This document shows positions 1 through 26,505 of a stretch of DNA of 28,117 bases, one piece after another. Below the pieces are notes generated by a model that had not been told where the DNA came from, ran no database searches, and was given only the letters and a program-made list of their open reading frames with translations. The position numbers and the translations under genes were made by a program. Source of the stretch: a virus; the IMG/VR virus record IMGVR_UViG_3300044591_002361, positions 1-28,117 of that record; one strand, given 5' to 3'. Each line of letters starts with the position of its first letter. Position 1 is the first letter of the stretch.

Positions 1-718
1 TTCTAAAATCTGGATTTCTAATAGTGATATTGCTTTCAATAGCATTGCTTACAAGATCAGAGATTTCTCTCATAGGATCTATTTTATCTTTAGCATATTT
101 TAAATAAGCTGTAAAGAACTGCATTGGAAAATGAGTTTTGGCGAATGCTGAAGCATAAGCATTTAAAGCATAACTAACGGCATGGCTCTTATTAAAAGAA
201 TATCTTTGGCTCTTTTCGATCCAGCTAAAAATTTGCTCTGCTTCGTCTTCGTTAACTATTTTGGATTCTTTTGTTTTATCTATAAATAGTTTTTTAATCT
301 TGGCCATTTCTTCTGGTTTTTTCTTACCAATAGCTTTTCTTAACATGTCCGCTTCGGAAAGATTAAATTTTGCTATTTTTTGACATATTTGCATAGCCTG
401 TTCTTGATAAACCATTTCTCCAAATGTTTCTGATAGTATAGATTCCAATGAATCATGGAAATAATCTATAGATTCTTTACCATTTTTTTTATCTATATAA
501 TGGTTACTAACAGTTTTACCATCTCTAACAGCCTCAAGACATCCTGGCCGTAAGATACTAATTAAAGCCGCCAACTGTTCAATATTTTGTGGCTTTAACT
601 TTTTGGACATACTTTGTCCTAATCTTGATTCCAATTGAAAAACACCCTTAGTGTTTCCTTCTCCAATCAAAAACCAAGTATCCGCACAGTCCAAATCTAT
701 ATTTGCAAAATCAATCAT
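1..718 (-). CDS. dnaE: DNA polymerase III alpha subunit, C-terminal (fingers) fragment, partial
   Basis: This frame starts at ATG 718 and runs off the left edge, giving 239 codons. It matches the fingers region of bacterial DNA polymerase III alpha: residues 25-30 read GVFQLES-like, followed by LRPG, then YQEQAMQI, ADMLRKAIGKKKPEEM and SFNKSHAVSYAL, all in the order seen in E. coli DnaE after about residue 580. These residues bind the incoming nucleotide and template. The catalytic aspartates are absent here because they lie in the separate upstream gene at 1589-3463. The start lies two bases after the stop of the exonuclease gene, so the two are probably translationally coupled. The FNKSH motif, where cyanobacterial DnaE carries a split intein, is uninterrupted. 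Identity as DnaE is secure; that the two fragments form one working enzyme is an inference. Confidence 0.9.
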   Translation of the reverse strand, partial: MIDFANIDLDCADTWFLIGEGNTKGVFQLESRLGQSMSKKLKPQNIEQLAALISILRPGCLEAVRDGKTVSNHYIDKKNGKESIDYFHDSLESILSETFGEMVYQEQAMQICQKIAKFNLSEADMLRKAIGKKKPEEMAKIKKLFIDKTKESKIVNEDEAEQIFSWIEKSQRYSFNKSHAVSYALNAYASAFAKTHFPMQFFTAYLKYAKDKIDPMREISDLVSNAIESNITIRNPDFR

Positions 719-720
719 AT

Positions 721-1422
721 TTAATTTAGAAAAGAATCCTTAAATTTAATTTGTGAAGTTAGTTTTCTATGCAATCTTAAAAATCTAATTAGCATATTAG
801 CACAATCTTTAACGTCTTTGATAGCATCATGAGCATTAGTCTTATCTATACCTAGATAGTCTCTTAGATTATCAAGAGCAAGAGATTTAATTTCTGGTAA
901 ACTTTCAAACCATAACCACGTTACTGCCATAAGATCGATTTGATCTCTTGGGTGAAATATATCAGTATTACTTTCTTTGTTTATATTACCATACTTTTGA
1001 CTTAATCTATTAATAATCTTCATATCAAATCTTATGATATTATATCCACACGCTATTGGTGCAGAGAACTGGCTTTTATTTTTTCTAATATTTGTATGAT
1101 AATTATCTAGATAGTTGATAAATTGTTTCCAAGAGTGTTTTTGGTCGGGATACTCCATCCAAGAATCAAATATTTTTTCTGGTGTTGTATCTTTAATCTT
1201 GGCATGCCATTCTAAAATATCGCTATCAGAATAGACACTCATATCTGGATTTGTCTGCTTTTCTAGCCTTTCTGGCTTCAAGAAAACGTTAAATTCAGAA
1301 TCTTTAATTATCTCTAATCTATTAGTATCAACAATCACAGATGATAATTGTACAGGACTACACTTTGATGGATCCGATCCGTCAGTCTCAAAGTCAAAAA
1401 CGCAAATATGATTACTAATCAC
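721..1422 (-). CDS. DEDDh 3'-5' exonuclease (DnaQ/epsilon-like proofreading)
   Basis: The 233-residue product carries the DEDD exonuclease motifs: Exo I as FDFETDG (D10, E12), Exo II as GYNIIRFD (D133), and Exo III as HDAIKD (H198, D203), the DEDDh type of the DnaQ/epsilon family. Such enzymes remove mismatched 3' nucleotides during replication. It has the Exo II spacing of exonuclease I or PolIII-epsilon-like proteins rather than a fused polymerase domain. The start is GTG at 1422, which overlaps the TGA stop of the preceding small gene as GTGA, so it is probably translated by coupling. Its position between the two halves of the PolIII-alpha polymerase strongly suggests that it is the proofreading partner. 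A role in general DNA degradation or recombination is the alternative. Confidence 0.88.
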   Translation of the reverse strand: MISNHICVFDFETDGSDPSKCSPVQLSSVIVDTNRLEIIKDSEFNVFLKPERLEKQTNPDMSVYSDSDILEWHAKIKDTTPEKIFDSWMEYPDQKHSWKQFINYLDNYHTNIRKNKSQFSAPIACGYNIIRFDMKIINRLSQKYGNINKESNTDIFHPRDQIDLMAVTWLWFESLPEIKSLALDNLRDYLGIDKTNAHDAIKDVKDCANMLIRFLRLHRKLTSQIKFKDSFLN

Positions 1423-1592
1423 CCGGTTACCTTTTCTACAGTTTCAACTGGCTTGATCATTACTTTCTGATTGTTTGATAAATTAACAGCATTTAAAGTT
1501 TTGCAACAAGATATTTTTTCTGGTTGTACTTTAGTATATGTAACATTTTTATATTTAAATTGATCGCCCACAGCTAATTCTGAAAATTTCAC
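1419..1592 (-). CDS. Small conserved-looking phage protein, 57 aa, unknown function
   Basis: A 57-codon frame fits exactly between its neighbours. It starts at GTG 1592, overlapping the TGA stop of the polymerase N-terminal gene as GTGA, and its own TGA overlaps the GTG start of the exonuclease in the same way. The product begins MKFSELAVGDQFKYKNVTYT and contains an ISCCKTLNAV stretch with two adjacent cysteines (C29, C30). The pattern (short beta-rich, a 'VGD.F.Y....YTK' opening, then a cysteine pair and a 'V..QKV.I.P' ending) resembles a class of small phage proteins I have seen without assigned function. No catalytic motif is visible. The double four-base overlap argues that it is translated. 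Confidence 0.75.
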   Translation of the reverse strand: MKFSELAVGDQFKYKNVTYTKVQPEKISCCKTLNAVNLSNNQKVMIKPVETVEKVTG

Positions 1593-3463
1593 GATATTTT
1601 CTCCTTGATTAACTTATTTACAAACATGATTTTATCTAACAATGCGATACCTAGAATATCAAATTTAATTACCCCCAATGCTTCCAAATCATTCATTTCT
1701 AATCCGGCTATATTTTGTTCGGTTTTTGTGTCAAAAATCATTGGACATATAGTATTTAAAGGATATGCAGATATTGCTACTCCAGCCGCGTGTTTTGACT
1801 GGTTGTATTTGGTTCCTTCTATTCTAATAGCCTGCTCAAACCTTTTGGCAAGTGGTCCCTCTAGTTGGCCGTTTTCATTAATTTGACACCAATCTTTAAA
1901 TTTTTCTGGATTATTCTCCAATGCCCATCTTATAATAGACGCTGAACCTTCTTCTTCTTTAATTTCTTGAAGTTCGTCTGCAATTTTGGCCTCGTCTGGA
2001 ATATGTTTTGTGATATTATTCATCTCTTCAAAAGTGATATTATTATGTACTCTAAGTACTTCTTTTAATGCGCCCCTGCCTTTTAGCGTATTAAATGTTA
2101 TCATTTGAGATACTCTATCAATACCGTATTTATCTTTGATATATTCAATAATTTTATCTCTAGCATCTATTGGTACGTCAACATCAATATCTGGCATGGA
2201 TATTCTTTCTGATGTATTTCTACCAGCATTATAGAATCTTTCAAAAAGTAAATTATATTTGATAGGATCAATATTCGTAATGCCTATAAGGTAAGATACC
2301 AAGCATCCTGCTGCTGATCCTCTACCAGGACCCGGTAGCCAATTATTATCTCTCACATAACGCAATATATCTCTAACTATCAAGAAATAACTAGATAGTT
2401 TAGCGTTCTCTAATATTTCTAGTTCATATTTAATTCTATCTATATATTGCTGTTGAGCTTCGGATGGTATTTTATTTGCTATTTTACTTTTCCAGCCTTC
2501 TCTACACAACTGTCTTAAAAAGTCTGATTCCGTAGCAAACTCTTTTGGACATTCAAACTTTGGTAATACTGGTTTGCTTAGAGGATTAAAAAATTCACAC
2601 ATACTGTCTATTAGCAAAGTATTTTTAATATCATCCTCATCATACAATGATGCCATATCTTCATTTGATAATAGATAATACTTATCTGAATTAAATAGAT
2701 TATTATATCCTGTTTCAATATTCGATATAATCTTTTTTGAAATTTCTGGTAGCGTAGTTTTTAATTGACTACAAATCAAAATTCTTTGATCCACAGCATC
2801 GTCTTGTTTACAATAATAACTTTGTATGCCAGCGAATGTTTTAACATTTATATCTTTACAGAATTTCTTAAGATTACCACTTATATCTTTTTGGTTATAA
2901 AAATTATCAAAGTTATGTAACTCGATAAAAACATTATCTTTACCAAAAACACCACGTAATTGATCTATATGGCTTTCGCAAACCTTCTCCCATTCTGGAA
3001 TTAGTTCATTATCTGATGTGATCTTATTCCATAGTGTAGAATTATGATAACCAGTAATACAGATCAAATTTATATCTTCTGATACTATTTTTATATTATT
3101 AAGATCTATGCGTGGTTTGCCATCAAAAAAATCTTTACCATTGGATAGAGATACAATTTTAATTAAATTTTTCCATCCAGATAAATTCTTGCACAAAACT
3201 GTGATTTGTGATATTTTATTGTGTTCATTCTTTATTAGAGGATCGCTATCGGTAATATTCAATTTACATCCAATAATTGGTTTAATATCATTATCAGATA
3301 GTTCTTTATAGAACGCAATTGATCCTGATATAGAACAATTGTCAGTGATCGCACAAGATTTAATATTTAACTCTTTGCATCTTTCAGCGATATCGCTAGG
3401 TTTAGACAAACCAAGCAAAAGACTGTAATGAGAATGAATGTTTAAAGGAACGTAAGTATTCAA
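1589..3463 (-). CDS. dnaE: DNA polymerase III alpha subunit, N-terminal fragment (PHP, palm, thumb)
   Basis: The 624-residue product corresponds to the first half of bacterial DNA polymerase III alpha. A PHP domain opens it (NIHSHYSLLLG near residue 8, then ITDNCSISGSIAFY). The palm carries PGRGSAAGCLVSYL and MPDIDVDVP, matching the two catalytic aspartates D401/D403 of E. coli, and near the end VIKFDILGI supplies the third (D555 of E. coli). It stops about 20 residues later, at the palm/fingers border; the fingers are encoded by a separate gene at 1-718. The start is TTG at 3463, just after the TAA stop of the upstream nuclease, with AGGTG a few bases upstream. No intein motif is present at the C-terminus. 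Replicative polymerase activity in complex with the second fragment is the likely role. Confidence 0.92.
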   Translation of the reverse strand: MNTYVPLNIHSHYSLLLGLSKPSDIAERCKELNIKSCAITDNCSISGSIAFYKELSDNDIKPIIGCKLNITDSDPLIKNEHNKISQITVLCKNLSGWKNLIKIVSLSNGKDFFDGKPRIDLNNIKIVSEDINLICITGYHNSTLWNKITSDNELIPEWEKVCESHIDQLRGVFGKDNVFIELHNFDNFYNQKDISGNLKKFCKDINVKTFAGIQSYYCKQDDAVDQRILICSQLKTTLPEISKKIISNIETGYNNLFNSDKYYLLSNEDMASLYDEDDIKNTLLIDSMCEFFNPLSKPVLPKFECPKEFATESDFLRQLCREGWKSKIANKIPSEAQQQYIDRIKYELEILENAKLSSYFLIVRDILRYVRDNNWLPGPGRGSAAGCLVSYLIGITNIDPIKYNLLFERFYNAGRNTSERISMPDIDVDVPIDARDKIIEYIKDKYGIDRVSQMITFNTLKGRGALKEVLRVHNNITFEEMNNITKHIPDEAKIADELQEIKEEEGSASIIRWALENNPEKFKDWCQINENGQLEGPLAKRFEQAIRIEGTKYNQSKHAAGVAISAYPLNTICPMIFDTKTEQNIAGLEMNDLEALGVIKFDILGIALLDKIMFVNKLIKEKIS

Positions 3464-4456
3464 TTATTCACCTGGGGCTTTATAGAAACCAAAAGAATGA
3501 TTTGGGTGCTTGTATTGTTTTACCACAGAATCTATGCCCTGCAACTGTGTATCATGTGCAATTTGTTGGCATTTACACATTATCTCTCCTTTTGGAGTAA
3601 TTTGATTATCTCTATATTCTTCTATAGCATTAATATCACTATTTTCAAAAGTCGTTTTGCCAAAATGGCATAACTTTTTACACATCCAGGTTTTATTTAA
3701 TTGTGGACGTTTAACATTCTTAATTTTTTCAAATTTTTCTTTGATCATTATTTCAGTTTTAATCAAATCGCTATTTTGAAAACACATAGAAAAAGGACCA
3801 CCATCATTTATAAAATTAATAGTAATCATTATATTATCGATATCAGGATATAGATGGTGCAACGCATAATGGTATATTCTTAATTGCGGATCATTTTCTA
3901 AACACGCTTGTGTTTTTTCTTTTCCTGTGGCCCAGTTTAATCTTTTACCTGTTTTCCAATCGATGATTTCAAAAAAATTATCATCAATCTTGGTGATTAG
4001 ATCCATAGTTCCTTTTAGTGCCAAATTGCCTTCTAAAACTCCGTCTGGAGTGTCGAATTTATATTTTGCCCACGGTTTGTCTATGATAAAATCAAAATGT
4101 TGTTCTGGACATATGATATGCCTATTTCTAGGATCAAACATACCATTATTAAATTCTATAGTTTTATATACCCAGTTTAAACAATCTTTTTTATCTTTGT
4201 CTTTCCAAACATGATGACTGTTAGCTTTTGTATAATGATCATAGACTTTATCAAAAATCTTTTCTAAATTATACTTTTTGATATTAATTTCACCAGCAAT
4301 ATCATCAATAATAATAGTTTTATCTTCTTGTAATCCTTGTTTTATAAAAGCTAGTATTTCAAGAACTTTATGTACAATAGTACCTTTATCTGCTTTTTGA
4401 TTAGACGGACCTCTCCAACCAAGTACATACTCTATAAAATACTGCTGTTCGCACAT
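3464..4456 (-). CDS. RecB/Cas4-like PD-(D/E)XK nuclease
   Basis: From ATG 4456 the product has 330 residues. It shows the PDDEXK_1 (RecB-like) signature: GTIVHKVLE (H29), then KGTMDLI (D152) and EIIDWKTGKR (D166, K168), the catalytic core. A QACLENDPQLRIYHYAL stretch follows, matching the family's Q-x-x-x-Y motif. Cysteines near the end (WMCKKLCHFG and MCKC) might bind an Fe-S cluster or zinc, as in Cas4/AddB, but the spacing is not classical. The frame stays open upstream and encodes SSSYNTHS directly before MCEQQYF, which is the family's usual N-terminal 'SYS....C...Y' motif. The true start is therefore probably a non-standard codon near 4501. The likely role is DNA end processing in replication or recombination. 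Confidence 0.85.
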   Translation of the reverse strand: MCEQQYFIEYVLGWRGPSNQKADKGTIVHKVLEILAFIKQGLQEDKTIIIDDIAGEINIKKYNLEKIFDKVYDHYTKANSHHVWKDKDKKDCLNWVYKTIEFNNGMFDPRNRHIICPEQHFDFIIDKPWAKYKFDTPDGVLEGNLALKGTMDLITKIDDNFFEIIDWKTGKRLNWATGKEKTQACLENDPQLRIYHYALHHLYPDIDNIMITINFINDGGPFSMCFQNSDLIKTEIMIKEKFEKIKNVKRPQLNKTWMCKKLCHFGKTTFENSDINAIEEYRDNQITPKGEIMCKCQQIAHDTQLQGIDSVVKQYKHPNHSFGFYKAPGE

Positions 4457-8044: not shown

Positions 8045-8540
8045 GTTTCACCTTTGTCCTTTGTACAGAAAGTAAAATATCGGATAAGTTTTTAACACTA
8101 TTAGCTAAATATGAAAGCCTATCCATTCTTTGTTTAGCATATTTTTGAATTTTTGTGAGCGAAGATGCTTTGTCATTATGTTTAATGGCTTGTAAAGATT
8201 TCTCAACAAAACCATATCCCTTATAATTATTTATTTCATCAGCGATTGTTTCTTTAGCAGTGCTTTCGGCCCAATTGTGTCTGGCTATTTCTCTGTTTAC
8301 GGTTCTTTGTAGAAATAATGAGTATTGTGCTAGTCTATAAGATATTTGAGCACAATCTTCTGGCGTTAATTTCTCTATCATATCTCTACTCATAGTAAAA
8401 TATTCATTAAGTTCACTCTCTGTGAAATTGTGAACATCACTATATTTACCCAATCCTATACTTGATTCATATTCGTCAAGTACTTTATCCCATTGTTCTA
8501 CTTGTTCTTTAGTTGTTTGCAATTCTATGCTCCCATTCAT
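8034..8540 (-). CDS. Hypothetical helical protein
   Basis: The 168-residue product is rich in Glu, Lys, Gln and Ser and looks almost entirely helical, with heptad-like stretches around residues 58-160 (for example AQISYRLAQYSLFLQRTVNRE and LTKIQKYAKQRMDRLSYLANS in sequence). No enzymatic motif or signal peptide is visible. ATG 8540 lies inside the 3' end of the nuclease gene (32-base overlap), and the 3' end overlaps the zinc-ribbon gene by 11 bases, so it is part of a translationally coupled run from recombinase to helicase. A structural or scaffold-like role in recombination is possible but unsupported; I do not recognise the family. Confidence 0.7.
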   Translation of the reverse strand: MNGSIELQTTKEQVEQWDKVLDEYESSIGLGKYSDVHNFTESELNEYFTMSRDMIEKLTPEDCAQISYRLAQYSLFLQRTVNREIARHNWAESTAKETIADEINNYKGYGFVEKSLQAIKHNDKASSLTKIQKYAKQRMDRLSYLANSVKNLSDILLSVQRTKVKHGS

Positions 8541-8913
8541 TAATTAAATTATAAGGAAGTTCAACATATGTGATACCGTTAATTTCGCACCACTCCTTCT
8601 TTTCTTTATCTCTTTTTTGTGCCTTTAGAAAAGATAATTTATTGGCGTGATAAAATGGAGTAAACTCATAGTGTTGTTCTCCATGAACCTCAATACATTT
8701 TTTATTTAATGGTATATAAAAATCTAGATATAATATTTCTGACTTACGCACACTAACAGGAACTTCTTCCAATATTTGCATAGTAGGAAATATCTTTTTA
8801 ATTATTTCTCTGGCTTTCAAATGATACGTTGACTTTTTAGTTGTGGTATCCTTGCTTATATTACCAGTAATATGCCAAGATATTATATTACCATCTAAAT
8901 CTCTAATATTCAT
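8509..8913 (-). CDS. Vsr/DUF559-like PD-(D/E)XK endonuclease
   Basis: The 134-residue product contains YLDFYIPLNKKCIEVHGEQH (D64, E75, H77, H81). This resembles the catalytic strand-turn-strand of Vsr/DUF559-type PD-(D/E)XK nucleases, where DF..P....IE.DG..H is typical. The usual second Asp of 'E.DG' is His here. A preceding helix (KAREIIKKIFP) and a later VELPYNLI strand fit the same fold. Such proteins act as nicking repair endonucleases or as free-standing homing endonucleases in phages. ATG 8913 overlaps the TGA of the recombinase gene as ATGA, so it is co-translated with it, which favours a role in phage recombination or repair over an independent selfish gene. Confidence 0.72.
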   Translation of the reverse strand: MNIRDLDGNIISWHITGNISKDTTTKKSTYHLKAREIIKKIFPTMQILEEVPVSVRKSEILYLDFYIPLNKKCIEVHGEQHYEFTPFYHANKLSFLKAQKRDKEKKEWCEINGITYVELPYNLINEWEHRIANN

Positions 8914-11439: not shown

Positions 11440-12024
11440 TTAAAATTGATATGATTCCGGTAAATAAATTCTCCATTCCTCTGGAATGTCTTCTCTTATC
11501 TTATACAGATGGTGGGCTACAGGCAAGTATTTGATATTTTTGGTTGGAGCTATTGGAAATTCTTTAAGTTTCATATTCGCTTGTTTGGGTGTTTTATTAC
11601 CCTTTTTCCTATTACACTCGACACAAGCTGTCACAATGTTAGTCCAATTAGTAGGAGATCCTGATTGATAATTCCATATAGACTTGGGTACTACATGGTC
11701 ATAAGTTAAATTATTAAAATCAAATTTTTTATCACAATATTGACAAGTATAATTATCTCTGATAAAAATATTTTTTCTAGAAAAATTCACAGACTGATGA
11801 CTAATTCTAAAATATCTTTTTGTTTTAGCTACCGCAGGTATTGGATATCTTTTATTATTGACCCCAACTATATGGTCATCAATATAAAAGTCCACAATAT
11901 CAATACCATATTTATTATTAGCTTGATACCTCATGTGCCATATAACTGCCTTTTGCCAGTCAATAATAGACAATGGTGTAAAATCAGCATTTAATAATAA
12001 ACATCTACTATTTTTGGACTTCAT
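11440..12024 (-). CDS. HNH endonuclease
   Basis: The 194-residue product contains an HNH/zinc nuclease core: CQYC (C94, C97), TYDHVVPKS (D109, H110), NWTNIVTACVECNRKKGNKT (N130 region, C134, C137). The N-terminal LLLNADFTPLSIIDWQKAVI is the usual opening of free-standing bacterial HNH proteins of the 'LN.sy.PL.v..w..A' group. In phages HNH proteins act as homing endonucleases, packaging nickases or anti-host nucleases. It overlaps the PhoH gene by 17 bases. There is no intron or intein next to it, so a homing role is possible but not demonstrated. Confidence 0.88.
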   Translation of the reverse strand: MKSKNSRCLLLNADFTPLSIIDWQKAVIWHMRYQANNKYGIDIVDFYIDDHIVGVNNKRYPIPAVAKTKRYFRISHQSVNFSRKNIFIRDNYTCQYCDKKFDFNNLTYDHVVPKSIWNYQSGSPTNWTNIVTACVECNRKKGNKTPKQANMKLKEFPIAPTKNIKYLPVAHHLYKIREDIPEEWRIYLPESYQF

Positions 12025-17101: not shown

Positions 17102-17255
17102 CTTTTTTTCTCCACCTTGGACGCCACTTTTTATCTGGCTTAGGAGTATCTATTTCATCTGCATCTTTAGGTGATAATATCTTTATTACACCTAATATAA
17201 AACTTGCTATAATACTTAGTAATCTATTTAGAGCTATTTTATCTATTAATCTCAT
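17094..17255 (-). CDS. Small 53-residue protein with a hydrophobic segment
   Basis: A 53-codon frame fits exactly between its neighbours. ATG 17255 overlaps the TGA of the cysteine peptidase as ATGA, and its TAA (17094-17096) falls inside the start of the next gene. The product has an apolar helix (LLSIIASFILGVIKIL, residues 12-27) and a strongly charged tail (PKPDKKWRPRWRKKDE, residues 38-53). This resembles small membrane or lysis-related peptides. No family is known to me. The double overlap supports real translation. Confidence 0.65.
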   Translation of the reverse strand: MRLIDKIALNRLLSIIASFILGVIKILSPKDADEIDTPKPDKKWRPRWRKKDE

Positions 17256-18178
17256 AAATAATCCTCAAAACCATAAGAAGGAAGTTTTTGAACAGGAAAA
17301 CCGTCAAATTGACTAAAAGCATATGCTCCGCTTTGACTTAGCATCCCTGCTGCTGTGTCAGCATGAATCAAAAACGATCCGTCTGGTATTTTACCCCACG
17401 CTGGATGACCACCATCATTCCACTTGCCCCAACTATTTTGCACTAGAAACGCTGGTTCACTACCAGTATCGTCACACGCTGTCCATGCCATAGCATGCGC
17501 CCAACTACCACTTACTTTTGCAAATCCTTTACTATCTCGTTTATTACTAAATCCATAACTAGAACATACTGATAATCCATAACCATTAGCTAAAGCATCT
17601 CTCGCTTCTTCTATGGTTCTAACAAGACTTACTGTTTTAATTTGATGATCATTAGCAAGATCAATTACTGGATCTGGCAAACCTCTGCTACCCCAACCGG
17701 CACCAAGATTACCATTATATTTACTAAAATCAGCAACGCCTTTGTAATTTTTTCTAACAAGAACACCACCACTTTGACTAACAAATGTAGCGGCTCTTGA
17801 GCAACTCATACCCTGACCACCATGACCTCTAGCACCATAAATGGCTTCTGTTGCTCCTCTGGCTATCCAAGACTCCTTATCTCTATGCACATCAATCTCT
17901 ACTGCTCGACTAATATCTACAGCATTTCGTGTTGCGTGACTAACACAATCTCCAGTGGTTTGTCTTTCATTATAAGGATTTTTATCAAATTTCAATACAC
18001 TCTTATACGGTGTGCTTAATTTACCCTTACCACTATTCTTAATTCTTTTTGCTCCGTCACCAAAGTAAGCATATTTAGAACTTTCCAAAAGTTCATTGAA
18101 TACGTGTTCTTCCCAAAGGCATCCTTGAAAGCCTTTTCTGTATTCATTATATAGATCGTTTGGTGATAGTCTTGGCAT
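17252..18178 (-). CDS. Papain-like (C1) cysteine peptidase
   Basis: The 308-residue product shows a papain-fold triad: C78 in RQTTGDCVSHATRNA, H228 in GSWAHAMAW, and N248 in VQNSWGKW, with Q73 positioned as the oxyanion glutamine. The WGK and GSFLIH segments near the end match the C-terminal lobe of C1 peptidases. The unusual spacing puts H and N close together, as in bacterial C1-like proteins. There is no signal peptide and no propeptide of usual size; residues 1-60 may regulate the enzyme. It is surrounded by small membrane proteins, so lysis, host-protein cleavage or virion maturation are possible. The fold assignment is good; the substrate is unknown. Confidence 0.82.
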   Translation of the reverse strand: MPRLSPNDLYNEYRKGFQGCLWEEHVFNELLESSKYAYFGDGAKRIKNSGKGKLSTPYKSVLKFDKNPYNERQTTGDCVSHATRNAVDISRAVEIDVHRDKESWIARGATEAIYGARGHGGQGMSCSRAATFVSQSGGVLVRKNYKGVADFSKYNGNLGAGWGSRGLPDPVIDLANDHQIKTVSLVRTIEEARDALANGYGLSVCSSYGFSNKRDSKGFAKVSGSWAHAMAWTACDDTGSEPAFLVQNSWGKWNDGGHPAWGKIPDGSFLIHADTAAGMLSQSGAYAFSQFDGFPVQKLPSYGFEDYL

Positions 18179-18666
18179 TATTTACTACCCTCATTACAAG
18201 CCCATGCTAGTGCTTTAAAAGCATTAACAGATTTGGTTCTTAAATTATTATCTAAGGTAACTACATCATCACCAATTTGTGAAGCAATAAAAGACTGGGA
18301 AGCTTCTCCTAGTCCGGGATATGATCCCTTTATATTTAATCTTAACATTAAACCAGTTAAAGAGTTTGCTTGACGAATTTCTTCTGTTGTTTTTACAACT
18401 TCATTATCGCCATCTAATTCTATTAAAGTAGCTAAATCCATATATAAATCAGATAGTCTTTGAGCATCTTTGGTTCTTGATGATGCCCCATTTTTCAGAG
18501 CATCAATTATAGGTTTGCACAAATCTCTTACTTCTGAATCTGATGGAGGAGTAACAATAACAATAGAATTATTAACTGGTCTATTAATTGGTAAATTAAA
18601 GTCTGGTCTTACTAATCCTAAAAATAATAAGACAGCACCTATCGCTAGTAATACTTTATTATTCAT
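18178..18666 (-). CDS. Membrane-anchored or exported protein, unknown function
   Basis: From ATG 18666, which overlaps the preceding TGA as ATGA, the product has 162 residues: MNNKVLLAIGAVLLFLGLVR is an N-terminal membrane or signal segment, followed by a helical domain (for example SDSEVRDLCKPIIDALKNG and RLSDLYMDLATLIEL) and a C-terminal KALAWACNEG. An in-frame ATG six codons upstream exists, but it lacks the coupling overlap. The domain contains two cysteines (near DLC and AC) that might form a disulfide after export. It overlaps the cysteine peptidase start by one base. No family is recognised; a periplasmic or virion-associated role is possible. Confidence 0.65.
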   Translation of the reverse strand: MNNKVLLAIGAVLLFLGLVRPDFNLPINRPVNNSIVIVTPPSDSEVRDLCKPIIDALKNGASSRTKDAQRLSDLYMDLATLIELDGDNEVVKTTEEIRQANSLTGLMLRLNIKGSYPGLGEASQSFIASQIGDDVVTLDNNLRTKSVNAFKALAWACNEGSK

Positions 18667-19028
18667 ACTTTTTCCTCGCCACATACTGTAGGACTTAGAT
18701 ACGGAAACATTTGATCAGCAACTTTTACCGCTTCCTCACAACCGCTCTTTACTGCTAAATCTCGTGTTTGTTTCCACGAAGCAACTAGTTCAAAGAATAT
18801 ATCGTTACTTTCTGGTGCTACTAATGTTGGTTTCGGAGTTTGTGCAACTGTTGGTTTGGCAACAATGCCTTTTACCTGAGATAATAAATCTCCTAGTAAT
18901 TTTTGAACTGGGCTTAATTTATCCTTGAATAAAACCCACAGTATTAAACCAATACCAGCATACAAAGCTAAATCAATTGGTTTTAATGAAGACGAGAATT
19001 CTTCGAAACTTTGAGCATAATCTAACAT
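18663..19028 (-). CDS. Single-pass membrane protein with Pro/Thr-rich linker, unknown function
   Basis: The 121-residue product has one apolar helix at about 19-33 (IDLALYAGIGLILWVLF), a KDKLSPVQKLLGDLLSQV amphipathic stretch, a Pro/Thr/Ala linker (residues 58-73) and a C-terminal helical region with two cysteines (SGCEEA and TVCGEE). It lies between two other membrane proteins and is coupled by ATGA with the next gene. A role in an envelope or lysis complex is suggested by context only. Confidence 0.62.
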   Translation of the reverse strand: MLDYAQSFEEFSSSLKPIDLALYAGIGLILWVLFKDKLSPVQKLLGDLLSQVKGIVAKPTVAQTPKPTLVAPESNDIFFELVASWKQTRDLAVKSGCEEAVKVADQMFPYLSPTVCGEEKV

Positions 19029-19412
19029 TTAAACTGTTCCTTTCTTTAGGAAAATACCTGTTTCTCTGAAAATAGTAACTGTTGCATCGATTGATGATGA
19101 TACCATTATCATGAGAATTTTTTTAATATACGAATGTATAATAGGCTCTACGAGAGCTGGTACAAGTGGTATGTCCACAATCAAAAACACTTTATCATAA
19201 AAACTATTAATGTACTCAACTGCTATCTGTTTTTTTTCTGGTCCTTCAAGATCTTTGGCTATAATTTCTATTATCTGCACAGTACTAGCTATAACTAACT
19301 GAAGTGTTTTCCAAACTTCACTTAGTGCTACGCTTTTTAGTTTTTGTAGTTTTTGTTTTAGTTCTTGGTGTAGTTTTTCTGCTTGTTCTATTACTAGCTC
19401 TTTTGCTGTCAT
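19029..19412 (-). CDS. Hypothetical helical protein overlapping the holin-like gene
   Basis: From ATG 19412 the product has 127 residues, mostly helical: MTAKELVIEQAEKLHQELKQ (coiled-coil-like), then hydrophobic helices around VWKTLQLVIASTVQIIEII and FLIVDIPLVPALVEPII. This start has a GAGG site six bases upstream; ATG codons further upstream (19424 and 19445) have weaker signals. The gene overlaps the 3' end of the preceding holin-like gene by 95 bases in another frame, which is long for this genome. The membrane-interacting helices suggest a partner of the neighbouring membrane protein. No family is recognised. Confidence 0.58.
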   Translation of the reverse strand: MTAKELVIEQAEKLHQELKQKLQKLKSVALSEVWKTLQLVIASTVQIIEIIAKDLEGPEKKQIAVEYINSFYDKVFLIVDIPLVPALVEPIIHSYIKKILMIMVSSSIDATVTIFRETGIFLKKGTV

Positions 19413-19665
19413 CGATAGCCTCATTTTTAAGTTTTTCTTGTTCAACTATTTTTTTAACCTCTGTTCTACCTTTGATATATTTAGCTAATATCCAAACCTG
19501 ACCACCAATTAATATTACACTTTCTACAGCATGAGATACTATAGTTATTAATTCTTCTTTTTGATCATTTTCTTTTAAAATACCAGTTAGATATAAACCA
19601 CTAAATATAAAACTAACTAATGTAAACCAAAATTCACTAGTTTTGTATCCGGCTTTAATGGTCAT
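19318..19665 (-). CDS. Small two-helix membrane protein, holin-like
   Basis: The 115-residue product has KTSEFWFTLVSFIFSGLYLT (a membrane segment near residues 12-28) and a second, HAVESVILIGGQVWILAKYI (residues 45-64), followed by a long, cationic Lys/Thr/Arg tail (residues 86-115). The 'S.EFW.TL....G.' opening and the two helices with a basic tail resemble phage holins. Its 3' coding end overlaps the next gene by 95 bases. It lies directly downstream of the metalloprotease genes and at the head of the membrane-protein cluster, consistent with a lysis role. Family placement is by pattern, not by a firm signature. Confidence 0.58.
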   Translation of the reverse strand: MTIKAGYKTSEFWFTLVSFIFSGLYLTGILKENDQKEELITIVSHAVESVILIGGQVWILAKYIKGRTEVKKIVEQEKLKNEAIDDSKRASNRTSRKTTPRTKTKTTKTKKRSTK

Positions 19666-19666
19666 A

Positions 19667-21292
19667 TTATATTCCTAATGTTAAATTTTCATCATAAAAA
19701 ATAATATTATTTGGATTTGAACCGTCTATAGTTAATTTAGGATCAAGATTATTGGTGGACAAACCGCATGTTATATCTGGAGTTAAAGACTGTATAAAAG
19801 ATAATAATGTTGATGATGAATCAAATTCTGATTGGTTTGGTATTACTTCTTCATAACCCAAGTCTAGTAAAGATTTAGTTGATATTAATGCTATTTGATC
19901 ATTATTTATCGATAAATCATTACTCATTATATCATGTGTTATCGGTGGATGAAATGACGTATATCTATTTGTCATATTTCTAGTTGATGCAAAATGTGTA
20001 CCGTCGTTTGATAATGGTATATAGCTTCTTTTTTTTCTCAATAAATAATATTGATTATAATTATTTAAAACATTTGGATATGGTTTTATATTACCATTTA
20101 ATGAATACGGAAAAATACCATTATTATTAAAAGTCCAATTTGTACCTATGCCTAGAACGTGTCCAAGTTCATGTGTAAATATTTTAGTTATAGTATTTAA
20201 ATAAGAAGGATCTGCTAAAAGAGCGTCTACAAGATCTTCTTCATTAATAGAAATATTTATTTTATAATCAATTGTATTAATTTTTGTATTACTTATTTTA
20301 TAAATACTATTTGGAATACAAGTTATAGTATTATCTGATGATGGATTTACGGTAATAGAATTGCATCGTATTCCTTTAAAAGTCTGAGTATTATTGCTTT
20401 TAAATTCAATAAATTTTCTAATATTATCATATATAGTTGGATTAAATCTAATAAATGTATTCCATCTATTCGCAGCATCTTCAATTGCTGCTCGAATACA
20501 ATTAGAAGCTATCATATCGTTGAAAGAATTTAAAAAAGTTGATGAGTCAAGAAATGAAAGATCAAATAAAGTTTGTAAATTACTATTACTAGGACCAGTA
20601 AATAGTATGCTGGTAGTATCAGATGGATACCACGGAGATGGATTACCAAATGAATTTGAAACATCCAATGGTATAATTCTGAATCTTATATTATTATTAG
20701 ATTTTATATTTTCAAATAAATATTGTCTTAAATTTTTAGTTACTGTTTTTCTAACTATGTAACTTTGTTCTTTAATTGGTAAAACATACATGCATTCTGC
20801 AATAAAATTTTTAATAGGCAAATCTGTTTCAGCATTAAGAGAATAATTCCAATTTAATATATTACCATTAATAACATTAAAATTAGTTGGTGCGGATATC
20901 TTTGGGTTGTGAGCTATTACTAATTGACCTCCACGTATAGAGTCAGCAGGCTTAACGCTAGATGCTATTATATTAGAATTTCTATATACTACAGCGCGCA
21001 TCACATAATTATTTGGTGTAACAGAAAAATTTTTAGAAATCAATTTTGTCGAGGCTGTTACTAAAATTGTTTCTTGATATGTGATTCTCCAAGCCTCAAA
21101 TGGACCGCGTGGACCGTTAGGATAAACTGGAGTTTCTGGTATATTCTCCCATATTCTACCAGAGTATTGAACTCTTATAATATCTCCTGGCTCCAAATTC
21201 ATTGCAGTCAAAGAATAATAAATTCTGCCCTTTGACCATCTTGGATTGGGTGTTGTTAATGATGGATTATCAAAATATATTTGTGTATTCAT
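19667..21292 (-). CDS. Fibronectin-like plus metzincin metalloprotease protein, copy 1
   Basis: The 541-residue product begins with a beta-rich module (about 1-130), then a fibronectin-like domain (about 132-225, PTNFNVINGNILNWNYS). A protease domain follows, with AAIEDAANRWNTFIRF near 280, HELGHVLGIG (H374, E375, H378), GTHFAST (H433), SFHPP (H448) and DIMS (M456, the Met-turn). This order resembles leishmanolysin-type (M8) metzincins. No signal peptide is seen, so the protein is probably made in the cytoplasm and placed on the virion. It is the last of three tandem paralogues (see 21297 and 22996) and lacks their Thr-Pro tail. Host surface or S-layer cleavage is a plausible role. Confidence 0.82.
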   Translation of the reverse strand: MNTQIYFDNPSLTTPNPRWSKGRIYYSLTAMNLEPGDIIRVQYSGRIWENIPETPVYPNGPRGPFEAWRITYQETILVTASTKLISKNFSVTPNNYVMRAVVYRNSNIIASSVKPADSIRGGQLVIAHNPKISAPTNFNVINGNILNWNYSLNAETDLPIKNFIAECMYVLPIKEQSYIVRKTVTKNLRQYLFENIKSNNNIRFRIIPLDVSNSFGNPSPWYPSDTTSILFTGPSNSNLQTLFDLSFLDSSTFLNSFNDMIASNCIRAAIEDAANRWNTFIRFNPTIYDNIRKFIEFKSNNTQTFKGIRCNSITVNPSSDNTITCIPNSIYKISNTKINTIDYKINISINEEDLVDALLADPSYLNTITKIFTHELGHVLGIGTNWTFNNNGIFPYSLNGNIKPYPNVLNNYNQYYLLRKKRSYIPLSNDGTHFASTRNMTNRYTSFHPPITHDIMSNDLSINNDQIALISTKSLLDLGYEEVIPNQSEFDSSSTLLSFIQSLTPDITCGLSTNNLDPKLTIDGSNPNNIIFYDENLTLGI

Positions 21293-21296
21293 ATAA

Positions 21297-22994
21297 TTAC
21301 GGTGTTGGTGTTGGTGTTGGTGTTGGTGTTGGTGTTGGGACCGATGGTATCAGTGTTGGAGTTGTTTCGGTTGTTGGAATAGGAGTTTCTGTGGTTTCAA
21401 TCGGAGGAGTTGTGGGTGTGGTAGGTGTTGGTGTTGGATAATCAAAATTTGATCCTAAATCTATATTTTCGTCATTATAGATTGTATCAGGTCCGCTAAC
21501 ATCAACAGCAGGCTCATTGAATCCTATATCTGTTCCTCTGGAACCTCCGCATATTTGTGCTGGACCAAGAACAGGAGGAACTGGATCTGGTTGTGGTATT
21601 TCTCCGATAGGATATTCAGAAGCGTCAGCATAATTTTCTCTATATCCAATATCCATTAAAAATTTAACAGATAAATCTGAGATCTTATTTGAATTGCCAT
21701 AAGACATAATATCGTATGTTGGCGCTGGATGACTTTTAGTAAAATCATTAGTTTCATTAATTAAATGAGCCCAATGATCTCCTTGTCCTAATCCACTATT
21801 ATTAATTGGAATATGATATTTAGGATATTGAAATTGATATCTATCATTATAGGCTTTTTGTGCTTTTGGATATAAGATATGATCTTGAGAATTTATAGAA
21901 TATGGAAATTTAAATGTTTCGTCGATATTTAATCCTGGATTTTCTGATGGTGTTGGAGGAGAATCCCAATAGCCAGCAATACCAGCAGCATGACCTAATT
22001 CATGTACCATTATATCTACAAGAGTATCGAAACTATATGAGTCAGGATCGTCCATCATTAATAACCAAAATGTAATAGTATTATATTCATAATCAGATAA
22101 TTTAATAAAACTGGCTGGACCACATCTAGCACCAGCATCATCATTCTCTATTGGGGACTGTGTTGAAAAATATACTAATTTCATACCATTAAAAGTTTGT
22201 TGATTATTTGTTATTCTTTCAATAAATTTTCTTAATATTTGTCCAACTTCAGAACTATAATTAACTAAAGCGTTCCATCTATCAGCAGCTTCATCTAGTG
22301 CTGGTTTAATATTTTTATAATCAAGATTTTCCCATGATGTTTTATCAAATAATTGAATATTGCTTTCTTGATCAATTTTTACAGTATGTATAGTTTGTGT
22401 GGTATTAAAGTATTGAGGCTTAGATTTTTTGCCCTCGACATCAACAGCGACTATAGAAAATAAAACAGTTCCTTGTCTAATATTATCGAAAACATAAGAA
22501 CTATTATTATTAGGTACTGTTCTATATATGGTAAAATTATCTGTGGAATCCAAATAATTTTTATAATTAGCTAACAATTCAAAATGATCTATTGGTAGAT
22601 CAAGTACGTTTTGATTATATACCCAACTCAAAGTATTAGATGATGAATTTAGATTTAATTCTTCGGGGCGTGTCAAATACTCCTGATCCAATATTATTTC
22701 TGGATAATATTCAATATAAATTATTTGACTGTTTCTTATAATTTTTGCTACGAATAATATTTTTTGAGCACTATTTGAATAATATATATTTTTAATATTA
22801 ATATTTGTTTTATCAATTTTAGATGAAGATTTAAATATATTGGATGATCCCCAAGAGTCTGTATTATAATTATATATTTGATAAGATATTTCTAATATAT
22901 CTCCAGATAAAACATTATTAGCATTAGCATTTATATTTAAATGAAATTTATTATTTAATAATTTTTTATTAAATTTTATTGTAGTTGATATCAT
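21297..22994 (-). CDS. Fibronectin-like plus metzincin metalloprotease protein, copy 2, with Thr-Pro tail
   Basis: This 565-residue paralogue has a beta-rich start, a fibronectin-like domain (about 106-200, RPEELNLNSSSNTLSWVYNQ), LFDKTSWENLD and AADRWNALV, then the protease motifs HELGHAAGIA (H331, E332, H335), GDHWAHL (H407, H410), SHPAP (H422) and DIMSYG (M430). Its C-terminus is a Pro/Thr-rich region ending in six Thr-Pro dipeptides encoded by a GGTGTT hexamer repeat. The stop TAA lies four bases before the next start. It is clearly related to the neighbours in domain order and motifs. An extended, flexible tail on an enzyme with no downstream domain is unusual. A virion (tail) location is inferred. 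Confidence 0.82.
   Translation of the reverse strand: MISTTIKFNKKLLNNKFHLNINANANNVLSGDILEISYQIYNYNTDSWGSSNIFKSSSKIDKTNINIKNIYYSNSAQKILFVAKIIRNSQIIYIEYYPEIILDQEYLTRPEELNLNSSSNTLSWVYNQNVLDLPIDHFELLANYKNYLDSTDNFTIYRTVPNNNSSYVFDNIRQGTVLFSIVAVDVEGKKSKPQYFNTTQTIHTVKIDQESNIQLFDKTSWENLDYKNIKPALDEAADRWNALVNYSSEVGQILRKFIERITNNQQTFNGMKLVYFSTQSPIENDDAGARCGPASFIKLSDYEYNTITFWLLMMDDPDSYSFDTLVDIMVHELGHAAGIAGYWDSPPTPSENPGLNIDETFKFPYSINSQDHILYPKAQKAYNDRYQFQYPKYHIPINNSGLGQGDHWAHLINETNDFTKSHPAPTYDIMSYGNSNKISDLSVKFLMDIGYRENYADASEYPIGEIPQPDPVPPVLGPAQICGGSRGTDIGFNEPAVDVSGPDTIYNDENIDLGSNFDYPTPTPTTPTTPPIETTETPIPTTETTPTLIPSVPTPTPTPTPTPTP
21301..21338. repeat. GGTGTT hexamer repeat, about 6.3 copies
   Basis: Six perfect GGTGTT units plus GG lie at the 3' end of the copy 2 metalloprotease gene. 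On the coding strand they encode alternating Thr and Pro. Each unit is 6 bases, so copy-number changes keep the frame and only alter the tail length. Shorter, imperfect versions of the same repeat occur at 21419-21439 and 22999-23041. Confidence 0.85.
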
Positions 22995-22995
22995 A

Positions 22996-24663
22996 TTATG
23001 GTGTTGGGGTTATTATTGGAGTGGGTGTTGGAGTAGGCGTTGTAGTAGTCTCATCGGACTCTAACACTGGAATAATAGTATCTATAGCATAGTTAATTTC
23101 TTTAGTTATAAGATTTATACTACCTACTTTAACAGGTTCGTATTCATCAGATAATGTGCCTATGCATTCAAATGTTTCTTCTGAAAGTATTGAACTGGAT
23201 AACGATTGAGTTAATGGTTGCGCTGGTTCTTCAAACGAACCCGGATTAACTTCGGCATATCCAAAATCAACTAAATTTTTAATAGTTACTAATCCAATCA
23301 ATGCTAATTGACTTATATTAGCAGCTCCCCATCCATAAGACATAATATCTTCTGGCATTGGTGGATGAGCATATGTATATTTATTTAATGGATTTCTAAT
23401 ATGAGCCCAATGTTGATCTTTTCCTTGTCCATCAAAATTTAATGGAATAAAACCTCTTTTCCATCCTTTTTTTCTATATTTATTAATTTCTATGTATGCG
23501 TTTTGAGTATTAGGAAAATATTTTCCATCTAATTGAGATCGAGAATTAACCCACTGATCATTAAGCGTATGTATATTACCACTCCAATAATGCCAATAAA
23601 CACCAATACCAAGAGCATGACCTAATTCATGTATAAATACTTTTACCCAATATGGATCAACATCTTGTCCCTGATAACCTATATCAAGATAATATCTATT
23701 AATTACTAAATTAAAACTTAATGTATTAAATTTTGTATCTTGATTTGTGCCTATGTCAATAAATTCTGATGGAGCACCTCCGGCTTGTGCCTTAAACATA
23801 TCATATATATATTTTATACTATTTAATTTAATACCTTTAAAATTTGGTTTCATTTTTAATATATAAGGTAAAATATTGGAATCAAATTTGATATAATTAG
23901 CCCACATATCAGCGGCTATATCCAAATATTTTTTTACAGCCGGAGCGGCCGTAGCCCAAGAGCTTTTGTCAAATAATTGATTATTAGTATTATTATTACC
24001 TACAAAAATTTTTGGAAACCATCTTTCTGCATATTGATATGCTGTATCATAAACAGTTAATCGAAAATAGTATATCTTATTTTTGGGTAGAGGAGAAGTA
24101 TCAAGATTTATAGTGTAAGAAGATGCATTTCCGAAACCCGTGAAATCGCCAATTCCGTTCGGAGTATTGATTGTATAAATAATATCATCTATTTTACAAT
24201 CTATTCTATATGCATAAATTGGCAAATATCCATAAGTAACGGACGGAGCATTCCAACTAAGAGTAATTAAATTATTATTTTTTACAACTTGTAAGTTTTG
24301 CAATGGTTTGGGTGTAAAAGCTAAATTCAGTTCTGCCGATGTAGCATCATATACTTCCCCTCTGGTTGTTGTAATCCTAATACTAATATAGTAGTAGCCA
24401 TTGGCAGGCATATATAAAGGTACTGCTGCGTTAAAATCCGTTCTACCAGGATAAGCATTTTTTTGAATAGTAGAAAATATAGTAGTACTTAGCGGAGTCC
24501 AGTCTGTTGGCCAATCTACTGCTGGCGGCTTTCTTGTCCATCTCACTGTGGCTGAATTTATAGTATTAAGAGGTATATCTTTAATACTATACCAAAGATA
24601 TGCATATTTTTGAATTATACCAGAACTATCAGTATTAATTTTTCTTATTTCGATTGATGGCAT
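22996..24663 (-). CDS. Fibronectin-like plus metzincin metalloprotease protein, copy 3, with Thr-Pro tail
   Basis: The 555-residue product has a beta-rich domain at the N-terminus, then a fibronectin-like domain (about 118-215, LQNLQVVKNNNLITLSWNAP), LFDKSSWATAAPAVKKYLDI and AADMWANYI. The protease motifs are HELGHALGIG (H345, E346, H349), DQHWAHI (H418, H421), YAHPP (H433) and DIMSYG (M441). It ends with a TTTTPTPTPTPIITPTP-like tail. The HELGH codons share a 16-base identical stretch (CATGACCTAATTCATG on the plus strand) with copy 2, so the duplication appears recent or selected. It is the first of the three in transcription and follows a GATase-like gene. Confidence 0.82.
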   Translation of the reverse strand: MPSIEIRKINTDSSGIIQKYAYLWYSIKDIPLNTINSATVRWTRKPPAVDWPTDWTPLSTTIFSTIQKNAYPGRTDFNAAVPLYMPANGYYYISIRITTTRGEVYDATSAELNLAFTPKPLQNLQVVKNNNLITLSWNAPSVTYGYLPIYAYRIDCKIDDIIYTINTPNGIGDFTGFGNASSYTINLDTSPLPKNKIYYFRLTVYDTAYQYAERWFPKIFVGNNNTNNQLFDKSSWATAAPAVKKYLDIAADMWANYIKFDSNILPYILKMKPNFKGIKLNSIKYIYDMFKAQAGGAPSEFIDIGTNQDTKFNTLSFNLVINRYYLDIGYQGQDVDPYWVKVFIHELGHALGIGVYWHYWSGNIHTLNDQWVNSRSQLDGKYFPNTQNAYIEINKYRKKGWKRGFIPLNFDGQGKDQHWAHIRNPLNKYTYAHPPMPEDIMSYGWGAANISQLALIGLVTIKNLVDFGYAEVNPGSFEEPAQPLTQSLSSSILSEETFECIGTLSDEYEPVKVGSINLITKEINYAIDTIIPVLESDETTTTPTPTPTPIITPTP

Positions 24664-24675
24664 TTAATTTTTCCT

Positions 24676-25539
24676 TTATATAACATCACCACCATCAACA
24701 TTACCACCGCCACCATAATAATAACTTGGATCATCAAATCTATTATCGTACTTATCTTGAATATCCGCTATTACTGGATATTCTTGTACATAACGATTAT
24801 ATTTTATACCATAAGATAGCGAATTATCGCATGGAGGAGACGACAATGATAATACTAAGCCTAATAAATTAACCCATCCTCCATTTTGATTACCAATAGG
24901 TGCACCGTCATACCAGTCCCATCCCATTACATATATTTTACCAGTACCATAAGGAATCATTGTAACTACTGATTGATTAACATCATCACCCTCATAAATA
25001 GTAACCGAATCTGGTGGTAAAGTTGTTGTGTCTAATGAGCTTGTTCCATCATTATTTGGGATTGTTGATGGGGCCGTTGGAAGTAGAGATAATCCGCTTG
25101 ATGTTAAATTAATTGGCTCACTTACTCCATTGGTATTTAAACTAAAACCAAAAATACTATTGAGTAAGCTATATAAACCATCACTGCTTGGTTCAAATGC
25201 TAATAATGTTCCGCCATTACTTACAAAGGTTGCTATAGCATCTTTGGCGTCACTAGTTAAATTAGCATCTAAATCATCACCCTGTAATTCTGGTATTACA
25301 AGAGTTCCACCAGAAAAACTTGAGAAAGTTGATGCGCTAATATCTGTGAATGTGCTATAAGAATGACCAAAACTACTTATAGCAGCAACTAGATTTGGTG
25401 CTTCTTCTTCAAGGTCTGTATAGTTTCCATTCATTAGTATATTAATAGTGCTGGTGCAATTTATAAAACGACCATTAACTACCATTGTTCCATTTTTGAT
25501 TGGATTTTCAGCAATAGCAAGAGTTATATCATTGGCCAT
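24676..25539 (-). CDS. GATase1/ThuA-like domain protein, possible virion component
   Basis: The 287-residue product has an opening beta segment (INILMNGNYTD), a likely Rossmann-like core (AAISSFGHSYSTFTDISAST, GGTLVIPELQGDDL, IATFVSNGGTLLAFEP and YGTGKIYVMGWDWYDG), and a Gly/Tyr-rich tail (YYYGGGGNVDGGDVI). The 'GGtLl.f' and 'G.G.iy..G.dwy' strings match the type I glutamine-amidotransferase-like/ThuA fold used in bacterial surface and carbohydrate-related proteins, but no catalytic Cys is seen at the usual nucleophile elbow. It lies between the beta-helix protein and the metalloproteases, so it may be a non-catalytic virion component. A GAAAGG site precedes ATG 25539. Confidence 0.65.
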   Translation of the reverse strand: MANDITLAIAENPIKNGTMVVNGRFINCTSTINILMNGNYTDLEEEAPNLVAAISSFGHSYSTFTDISASTFSSFSGGTLVIPELQGDDLDANLTSDAKDAIATFVSNGGTLLAFEPSSDGLYSLLNSIFGFSLNTNGVSEPINLTSSGLSLLPTAPSTIPNNDGTSSLDTTTLPPDSVTIYEGDDVNQSVVTMIPYGTGKIYVMGWDWYDGAPIGNQNGGWVNLLGLVLSLSSPPCDNSLSYGIKYNRYVQEYPVIADIQDKYDNRFDDPSYYYGGGGNVDGGDVI

Positions 25540-25590
25540 AATGACCCTTTCATTAGTAATAGTTTATGTCTGTATTGGTATTACACCAAA

Positions 25591-26502
25591 TTACAATATA
25601 CCTAAAATACTAGATCCATTGATTCCACCACCCTTAATCATAACAGATCCTATCGTTCCCGGAATTGCTTCATTATCTAACATATTTACAGCGGCACTTT
25701 GACTAAAAGTGGCTGTTCCAGAAACATCACCATAGCAGTATGATGTATCATTAAAAGAAGCATCTCCATTTACAGTAGCTAAATCTTTGTGTATAGATGA
25801 ACCGTTAAAAATTGATCCGTCACCAATACTAGCACCCATCATCATACCATCACCATTTAAAGACGAACCATTAAATATAGCCACATTAGTAATGATACCG
25901 AGATTTTGACTAGTATTATTGAATACAACGTTGCCGCTTATAGTTAGGGTAGATATTGCCTTATTATATGAGCTATTATTAAATGTAATACTACTAATAC
26001 TAGCACTAATACTATCTTCACAATAACTACTTCCATTAAATGATATAGATGTTGGCCATGTTGTGATGCCAGTAGCATCATAAAAATATGATGTATCATA
26101 GAACGATACTGTGCCGCTAACATTGCCTCCACCACCAACCCCCATATATGAACTATTATAAAAACTAGCATTACCAATTATCGACCCATTATGTGTTGCT
26201 CCATTAGAAAAAACAACATCTGGACAAGTAATAGTCCCAGCATATGTAAAGCCTGATTGAAAAAGTGCTTGTGAAGTTACAGTTGTTGATGTGGATCCAA
26301 CATCAAATACATAAGATCCTGTAGTAATAGTATTACAGTAAACAGCTGACATAGAACCATTTACATTGTCTAATAAAATCACATCATCTGCGCTGGTTGG
26401 AACATTATTATATGATATAAGATGATCAATATCTTCATACCAATTAGAGCTATTGTCCCACGCTCCACCAGATCCACCCGCATAAAAATATAGTGTTGCC
26501 AT
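25591..26502 (-). CDS. Repeat-rich probable beta-helix surface protein
   Basis: The 303-residue product has a start resembling bacterial surface proteins (LYFYAGGSGGAWDNSSNWYE, then PTSADDVILLDN) and a long array of short repeats in residues about 110-280. The repeat core is F-(N/Y)-x-(S/T)-S, as in SFYNSSY, SFYDTSY, SFNGSSY, TFNNSSY, VFNNTSQ, IFNGSSL, IFNGSSI and SFNDTSY, each followed by short Gly/Ser/Thr turns. This pattern fits a right- or left-handed parallel beta-helix of a tail spike or fibre. There is no signal peptide, as expected for a virion protein. It sits directly after the tail-fibre gene. The exact fold is an inference from repeat spacing. Confidence 0.72.
   Translation of the reverse strand: MATLYFYAGGSGGAWDNSSNWYEDIDHLISYNNVPTSADDVILLDNVNGSMSAVYCNTITTGSYVFDVGSTSTTVTSQALFQSGFTYAGTITCPDVVFSNGATHNGSIIGNASFYNSSYMGVGGGGNVSGTVSFYDTSYFYDATGITTWPTSISFNGSSYCEDSISASISSITFNNSSYNKAISTLTISGNVVFNNTSQNLGIITNVAIFNGSSLNGDGMMMGASIGDGSIFNGSSIHKDLATVNGDASFNDTSYCYGDVSGTATFSQSAAVNMLDNEAIPGTIGSVMIKGGGINGSSILGIL
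25700..26180. repeat. Coding tandem repeats of the F-N-x-S-S type (degenerate)
   Basis: Eight copies of a short peptide unit (F-(N/Y)-x-(S/T)-S) are spread through the beta-helix gene. At the DNA level they are degenerate, so they are old or strongly diverged; the protein pattern is the evidence. Confidence 0.5.
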
Positions 26503-26505
26503 AAA

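Follow-up and report, generated by a model that had tools for sequence, protein, structure and literature searches.

Two genes around an exonuclease gene encode the halves of a DnaE-type DNA polymerase III alpha subunit in environmental phages

How a DnaE-type DNA polymerase III (Pol III) can be encoded in two pieces with an exonuclease gene between them is the question raised by the virus record IMGVR_UViG_3300044591_002361. This record, a phage fragment of 28,117 bases, is by itself the whole stretch of DNA analysed here (the window), and its genome is known from the window alone. The five genes concerned lie on the minus strand and are listed below in transcription order, where alphaN and alphaC denote the two halves of the Pol III alpha subunit.

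3464..4456, minus strand: PD-(D/E)XK nuclease (RecB/Cas4-like; Pfam PDDEXK_1, 2.9e-14), first gene of the conserved block
1589..3463, minus strand: alphaN, N-terminal half of a DnaE-type Pol III alpha, 624 amino acids (aa), TTG start, with PHP, palm and thumb
1419..1592, minus strand: small gene of 57 aa, no Pfam family, function unassigned
721..1422, minus strand: DEDDh 3'-5' exonuclease (DnaQ/epsilon-like), putative proofreader, 233 aa
2..718, minus strand: alphaC, fingers-containing half of Pol III alpha, 239 aa, with its own ATG and open at the contig end

The two halves are very probably two chains of one replicative polymerase, which would associate without splicing and use the exonuclease as proofreader. 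The evidence is presented first for the proteins and their junction, then for the related loci.

Domains of the two chains and the site of the cut

The original prediction, made from the letters of the window, had assigned PHP, palm and thumb domains with three catalytic aspartates to the N-terminal gene. This is borne out by Pfam, which detects PHP (5e-31) and DNA_pol3_alpha (5.5e-71) in alphaN, and by the residues D425, D427 and D602, which are invariant in 125 of 125 alphaN proteins. The other half, alphaC, matches DNA_pol3_finger (7.6e-46) and comprises the fingers, the helical region that follows them and an OB fold; it starts at an ATG just ahead of LDC..TW.LI..GNTKGVFQLES. The hallmarks of a C-family Pol III alpha (PHP, palm with three Asp, thumb and fingers) are thus found over both chains together, while the usual single polypeptide is replaced by two open reading frames (ORFs) with two genes between them, an arrangement shared by the window and 111 unique alphaN/alphaC pairs. 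Given the E-values and the conservation in these pairs, a chance resemblance is excluded.

The end of alphaN lies, as predicted, about 20 residues past KFDILG: this motif occupies residues 600-605 and is followed by 19 residues. In phmmer comparisons with E. coli alpha, the match of alphaN ends at residue 573 and that of alphaC begins at residue 584, and the claimed contiguity of the halves in the family alignment also holds for the folded models. AlphaFold models were obtained for the window alphaN (predicted local distance difference test, pLDDT, 90.6) and for the complete 541-aa alphaC of the related locus L002 (pLDDT 86.4), to which the window alphaC is 68% identical. Residues 1-624 of the alphaN model superpose on E. 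coli alpha 3-577 (2hnh; Z 38.6, 3.0 Å, 566 residues), and the L002 alphaC model superposes on 576-1075 (5fku; Z 13.8, 460 residues, root-mean-square deviation 11.7 Å), the large deviation presumably reflecting domains that are placed differently relative to each other. No segment is consequently missing between the halves. Furthermore, the alphaN model terminates in a helix (607-623) after the strand carrying the third catalytic Asp, which places the cut between folding units; as it falls in the link from the last palm helix to the fingers, no folding unit is divided and each chain is made up of complete ones. The C-terminal region of bacterial alpha binds tau, and this region is absent here, because alphaC ends at E. 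coli position 1075 by alignment.

Such a junction could in principle be repaired after translation by a trans-splicing split intein. In cyanobacteria, DnaE is encoded by two genes cut in the FNKSH region, and the products are ligated by a split intein. For MIJ3, a split PolB with an intein is described (PMC6892783). The absence of intein termini noted in the original prediction is matched by the absence of any intein domain detectable by Pfam, and the space at the junction is small: 19 residues follow KFDILG, 0-30 residues precede the conserved start of the fingers, and the window junction is only about 7 residues longer than in a relative with a fused alpha (L027, see below). The split-intein explanation is nearly excluded by these data.

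Removal at the RNA level was considered as well, namely a self-splicing intron containing both the small gene and the exonuclease gene, so that the mature mRNA encodes one chain. Phage polymerase genes do acquire introns, which have been suspected in other phages with split polymerases (PMC10580990). The GTGA overlaps of the window are indeed located at 1589-1592 and 1419-1422 and its 2-base gap at 719-720. Gene overlaps in the block, of 4-8 bases, leave no space for intron ends. No Rfam match was obtained in ten sources including the window, L002, L004, L009 and L030, a start codon of its own is present in alphaC, frequently together with a 25-aa extension, and the halves are 6.8 kb apart in one related locus (L219). 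An intron is accordingly very improbable.

The gene between the halves is recognized by Pfam as RNase_T (7e-10) and by PHROG as a DNA polymerase exonuclease subunit (9e-22). Its DEDDh active site is complete, with D10, E12, D133, H198 and D203 conserved in at least 95% of the homologues. The small gene is characterized by the motif F..VG..F...Y.K....SCC..NA; its profile matches exactly once per locus in 186 loci, and against PHROGs it gives only weak matches of unknown function. That the small protein may help assembly is a guess. In L002 (10059-12608), a gene of 849 aa with an RCC1-like start is inserted between the small gene and the exonuclease gene, and an insertion in this gap is also seen in L021, L045, L046 and L048; a small-gene domain inside the 849-aa protein was considered and received no support from the profile.

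Taken together, the proposed mechanism is as follows. alphaN and alphaC would be made close together from one operon, which would couple the synthesis of the chains; these would then bind through the natural palm/fingers contacts, giving a DnaE-type core without splicing, and the exonuclease encoded between them would act as the proofreading subunit, like epsilon in bacteria, as suggested by its position and homology. Physical association, polymerase activity and partnership with the exonuclease are in this scheme predictions from sequence.

Conservation, variant relatives and the case for a sole replicase

Scans of IMG/VR returned 41 loci via alphaN, 485 via alphaC and 283 via the exonuclease, of which the best 80 were kept for alphaC and for the exonuclease. 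Several contigs were fetched more than once, and the non-redundant set consists of the 111 alphaN/alphaC pairs, in about 89 clusters. The gene order expected in related phage genomes recurs in the majority of some 190 related loci; it is found in full (nuclease, alphaN, small gene, exonuclease, alphaC, SSB) in 140 of 204 loci, and nearly all the others are truncated or lightly disturbed versions of it; the nuclease gene lies immediately upstream of alphaN in nearly all loci. Median gene spacings in the block are 0, -8 and -4 bases. The median ratios of nonsynonymous to synonymous substitution rates (dN/dS) are 0.036 for alphaN, 0.034 for alphaC and 0.032 for the exonuclease, and both halves and the exonuclease are under strong purifying selection. 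The identities of alphaN and alphaC are correlated at 0.90, and those with the exonuclease at 0.87-0.88; both halves are inherited together. This conserved arrangement under purifying selection is the product of neither decay, as originally argued, nor faulty assembly. An assembly artefact, which had been named as a possible refutation, and equally a frameshift, are ruled out by the 111 unique pairs from many metagenomes. The closest alphaN match among 50,697 phage records is about 32% identical.

The variants are informative on the relationship between the halves. In L027 alpha is fused (1144 aa, 49% and 41% identical to the two halves), with the exonuclease gene upstream of the fused gene, which shows that both halves belong to one enzyme. 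L022 and L023 are split without the small gene, so that this gene is not needed for the split; in L022 the ORF that takes its place resembles, by eye, the ORF preceding the exonuclease gene in L027. On these arrangements, alphaN was moved across the exonuclease gene, or the reverse. In a tree with distant phage outgroups the fused L027 falls within the split group and a single split clade is rejected (approximately unbiased test, p 0.016); with bacterial outgroups a single split is not rejected (p 0.46).

The halves of L219 are about 6.8 kb apart, with genes of amino-acid metabolism between them, a distance that fits two independent chains. That the halves are separate chains and can lie this far apart could also be read as a sign that they act independently, for example with a PHP/palm enzyme role for alphaN and a DNA-binding role for alphaC, and form no joint polymerase. 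This is very unlikely, given that all residues conserved in the family are kept in both halves and that the halves co-occur wherever the contig allows a check; polymerisation by a palm and thumb that lack fingers is also not known. By eye, about six genes occupy positions 3649-9577 of L219, between alphaN and the exonuclease gene (aldehyde dehydrogenase, aminotransferase, saccharopine dehydrogenase-like and others), and an ornithine cyclodeaminase-like gene lies upstream.

Two domain features vary together among the relatives. The nine-residue metal site HHDHEHEDH is retained in most PHP domains, and the N-terminus of most alphaC proteins is extended by 25 aa that include a CGC motif; in the window alphaN two of the nine ligands are left, and metal site and CGC extension are lost together in the subclade of the window (the window, L004-L008, L127, L130 and L133). 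In this subclade proofreading would come from the exonuclease alone.

As regards the role of the enzyme, 20 related contigs of 138-238 kb contain one DNA_pol3_alpha (PF07733) locus each, and no second alpha, PolA, PolB or beta clamp was found in them by searches that each had positive controls. A full-length dnaE elsewhere in the genome, the other refutation named in advance, was likewise not found in these contigs. G011 shows only alphaN fragments, probably owing to sequencing errors. The split core is thus probably the only replicase of these phages. Several points weigh against the interpretation as a two-chain replicase. The 20 contigs could be incomplete. The window alphaC is truncated by the contig end: its complete nearest relatives with the same N-terminus have about 510 aa, so that the window shows a little under half of it. 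Moreover, the internal clamp-binding motif usual in bacterial replicases (QxxLF-like, after the fingers) is missing by pattern in 103 of 111 alphaC proteins, the same pattern being present in 11 of 13 bacterial controls; the window alphaC ends before that region. With the motif missing and no beta clamp found, the processivity of the enzyme is unexplained.

These losses of the PHP metal site (in the subclade of the window) and of the clamp motif would also suit a decaying or accessory gene in a phage replicated by the host's or another polymerase. Such an explanation is highly unlikely in view of the dN/dS of about 0.035 in both halves, the invariant catalytic residues, and the single locus without any other polymerase family detected in the 20 contigs.

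The block of the window is surrounded by genes for phage replication and nucleotide metabolism. Encoded upstream are dNMP kinase, Toprim primase, DnaB helicase, a UvsX-like recombinase, PhoH, ribonucleotide reductase and dCMP deaminase, and two HNH-type endonuclease genes (8509-8913 and 11440-12024) are located in the replication region. The long ORFs at 17252-28116 have almost no PHROG match, and their proteins look unlike known phage families. Among the related contigs, L220 was binned with a Flavobacteriales metagenome-assembled genome and L221 with one of Lokiarchaeota, weak host hints since both may be mis-binned phage contigs. The alphaN of L136 is divided into five short ORFs, probably by sequencing errors of that contig.

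An interrupted alphaN start in related loci

In 21 non-identical related alphaN genes, the window not being among them, the reading frame is interrupted after about codon 14. The interruption is located at the 5' end of alphaN in the following loci:

L017, L018, L020, L063, L064, L065, L069, L077, L081, L082, L086
L088, L089, L107, L145, L170, L172, L179, L189, L198, L199

Immediately behind the conserved peptide M..xYxPLHVHS comes a stop (TAA, TAG or TGA), in every case preceded by TCT or TCC. Reading continues 5-8 bases and one codon further on with [HM]YSLLDGLS, whose frame can be any of the three. The stop is positioned at a hairpin of 6-8 pairs, the other arm being formed by the Ser and Leu codons of YSL; the mean is 6.95 pairs, compared with 4.46 (maximum 5.24) when the gaps are randomised. 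Covariation with the gap is seen at synonymous third bases (Ser T-A, C-G, A-T; Leu A-T, T-A, G-C), and in a second stem the start-codon region pairs with the bases before the stop. On a FastTree tree of alphaN the trait changes 13 times, which indicates that the interruption is mobile or recurrent. Directly upstream of alphaN, after the PD-(D/E)XK gene, an endonuclease-like gene of HNH type with about 250 codons was recognized by eye in L145, L170 and L179.

The marks of the bypass in T4 gene 60 are a stop after the take-off codon, flanking stem-loops and association with a homing endonuclease, and shorter counterparts have long been expected (PMC5009743). The interrupted alphaN genes resemble it in the stop after the take-off codon, the stem-loops and, at three loci, the endonuclease-like gene upstream. 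Against a bypass, the candidate landing codon encodes Ser in only 13 of the 21 genes and is otherwise ACT or GCT, an in-frame GTG follows the stop in a few variants, and a TTG four codons on, a possible restart, is present in 20 of 21, as it is in 53 of 85 uninterrupted genes. A restart at this TTG would delete the metal-binding HxH; the remaining PHP metal site is intact in the interrupted loci, which favours a full-length product. On these sequence features, the chances that the interrupted genes are read by true translational bypass appear evenly balanced. The combined picture, in which an uncultured lineage replicates with a two-chain Pol III that has neither splicing nor the usual clamp motif and about one fifth of its known members carry a short, mobile alphaN bypass (stop codon plus hairpin), is put forward tentatively and has somewhat less than an even chance. 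If true, it would parallel T4 gene 60, in which gene splitting and bypass likewise occur together.

Comparison with known systems

With bacterial DnaE and epsilon the present system shares the domains, the catalytic residues, the fold and a separate DEDDh exonuclease. It differs from bacterial DnaE in having two chains instead of one, in the absence of the tau-binding region and in the clamp motif missing from 103 of 111 proteins. A split DnaE is in itself nothing unique among phages, since cultured ones divide it at other sites: between PHP and palm in Gordonia phage Sienna (gp64/65/66) and Microbacterium phage Haunter (gp56/57), inside the palm at residues 421/425 in Bacillus phage Jayan (CDS41/42/43), and inside the fingers in Lactococcus phage AM8 (137/140). 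As in our loci, alpha is divided over two ORFs, which in some cases flank a small ORF, and is annotated without intein; unlike in our loci, there is no exonuclease between the halves. Near the site of the Jayan split, at residues 375-420, about 0.8 kb of additional sequence divides alphaN once more, into two ORFs, in L065, L097, L117, L204 and L121; the insert of L065 contains a homing-endonuclease-like ORF, and an Rfam search found no intron.

The group 2.2 jumbo phages divide a minimal Pol III alpha core between two standalone proteins that are thought to reconstitute the enzyme (PMC7824862, Iyer et al. 2021), with the catalytic core only, genes far apart and PolB also present (PMC7824862). 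In contrast, all domains from PHP to OB are present here, the genes form one block, and the 20 related contigs contain no PolB. The split PolA of the OM43 phages MEP401 and MEP402 also consists of two ORFs with a small ORF between them (PMC10580990), but it belongs to another polymerase family and has no exonuclease gene between the halves. Cyanobacterial split DnaE likewise has two genes; its intein ligation does not apply here, nor does its cut site, which, as originally stated, is distinct from the palm/fingers cut.

An exact description of the palm/fingers split was not found in the literature searched, most subscription journals being outside its reach. New features are the position of the cut, the complete set of domains, the exonuclease and small gene nested between the halves, the scale of conservation and the lineage without known cultured members. 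The system provides a natural cut site of Pol III alpha between palm and fingers, used by many phages, and a fused relative to compare it with. Because the parts can be separated, the assembly, proofreading and processivity of Pol III become accessible to tests, and split-polymerase tools gain a ready design. Collectively, these loci represent a replisome type that is common in environmental aquatic phages and lacking in cultured collections.

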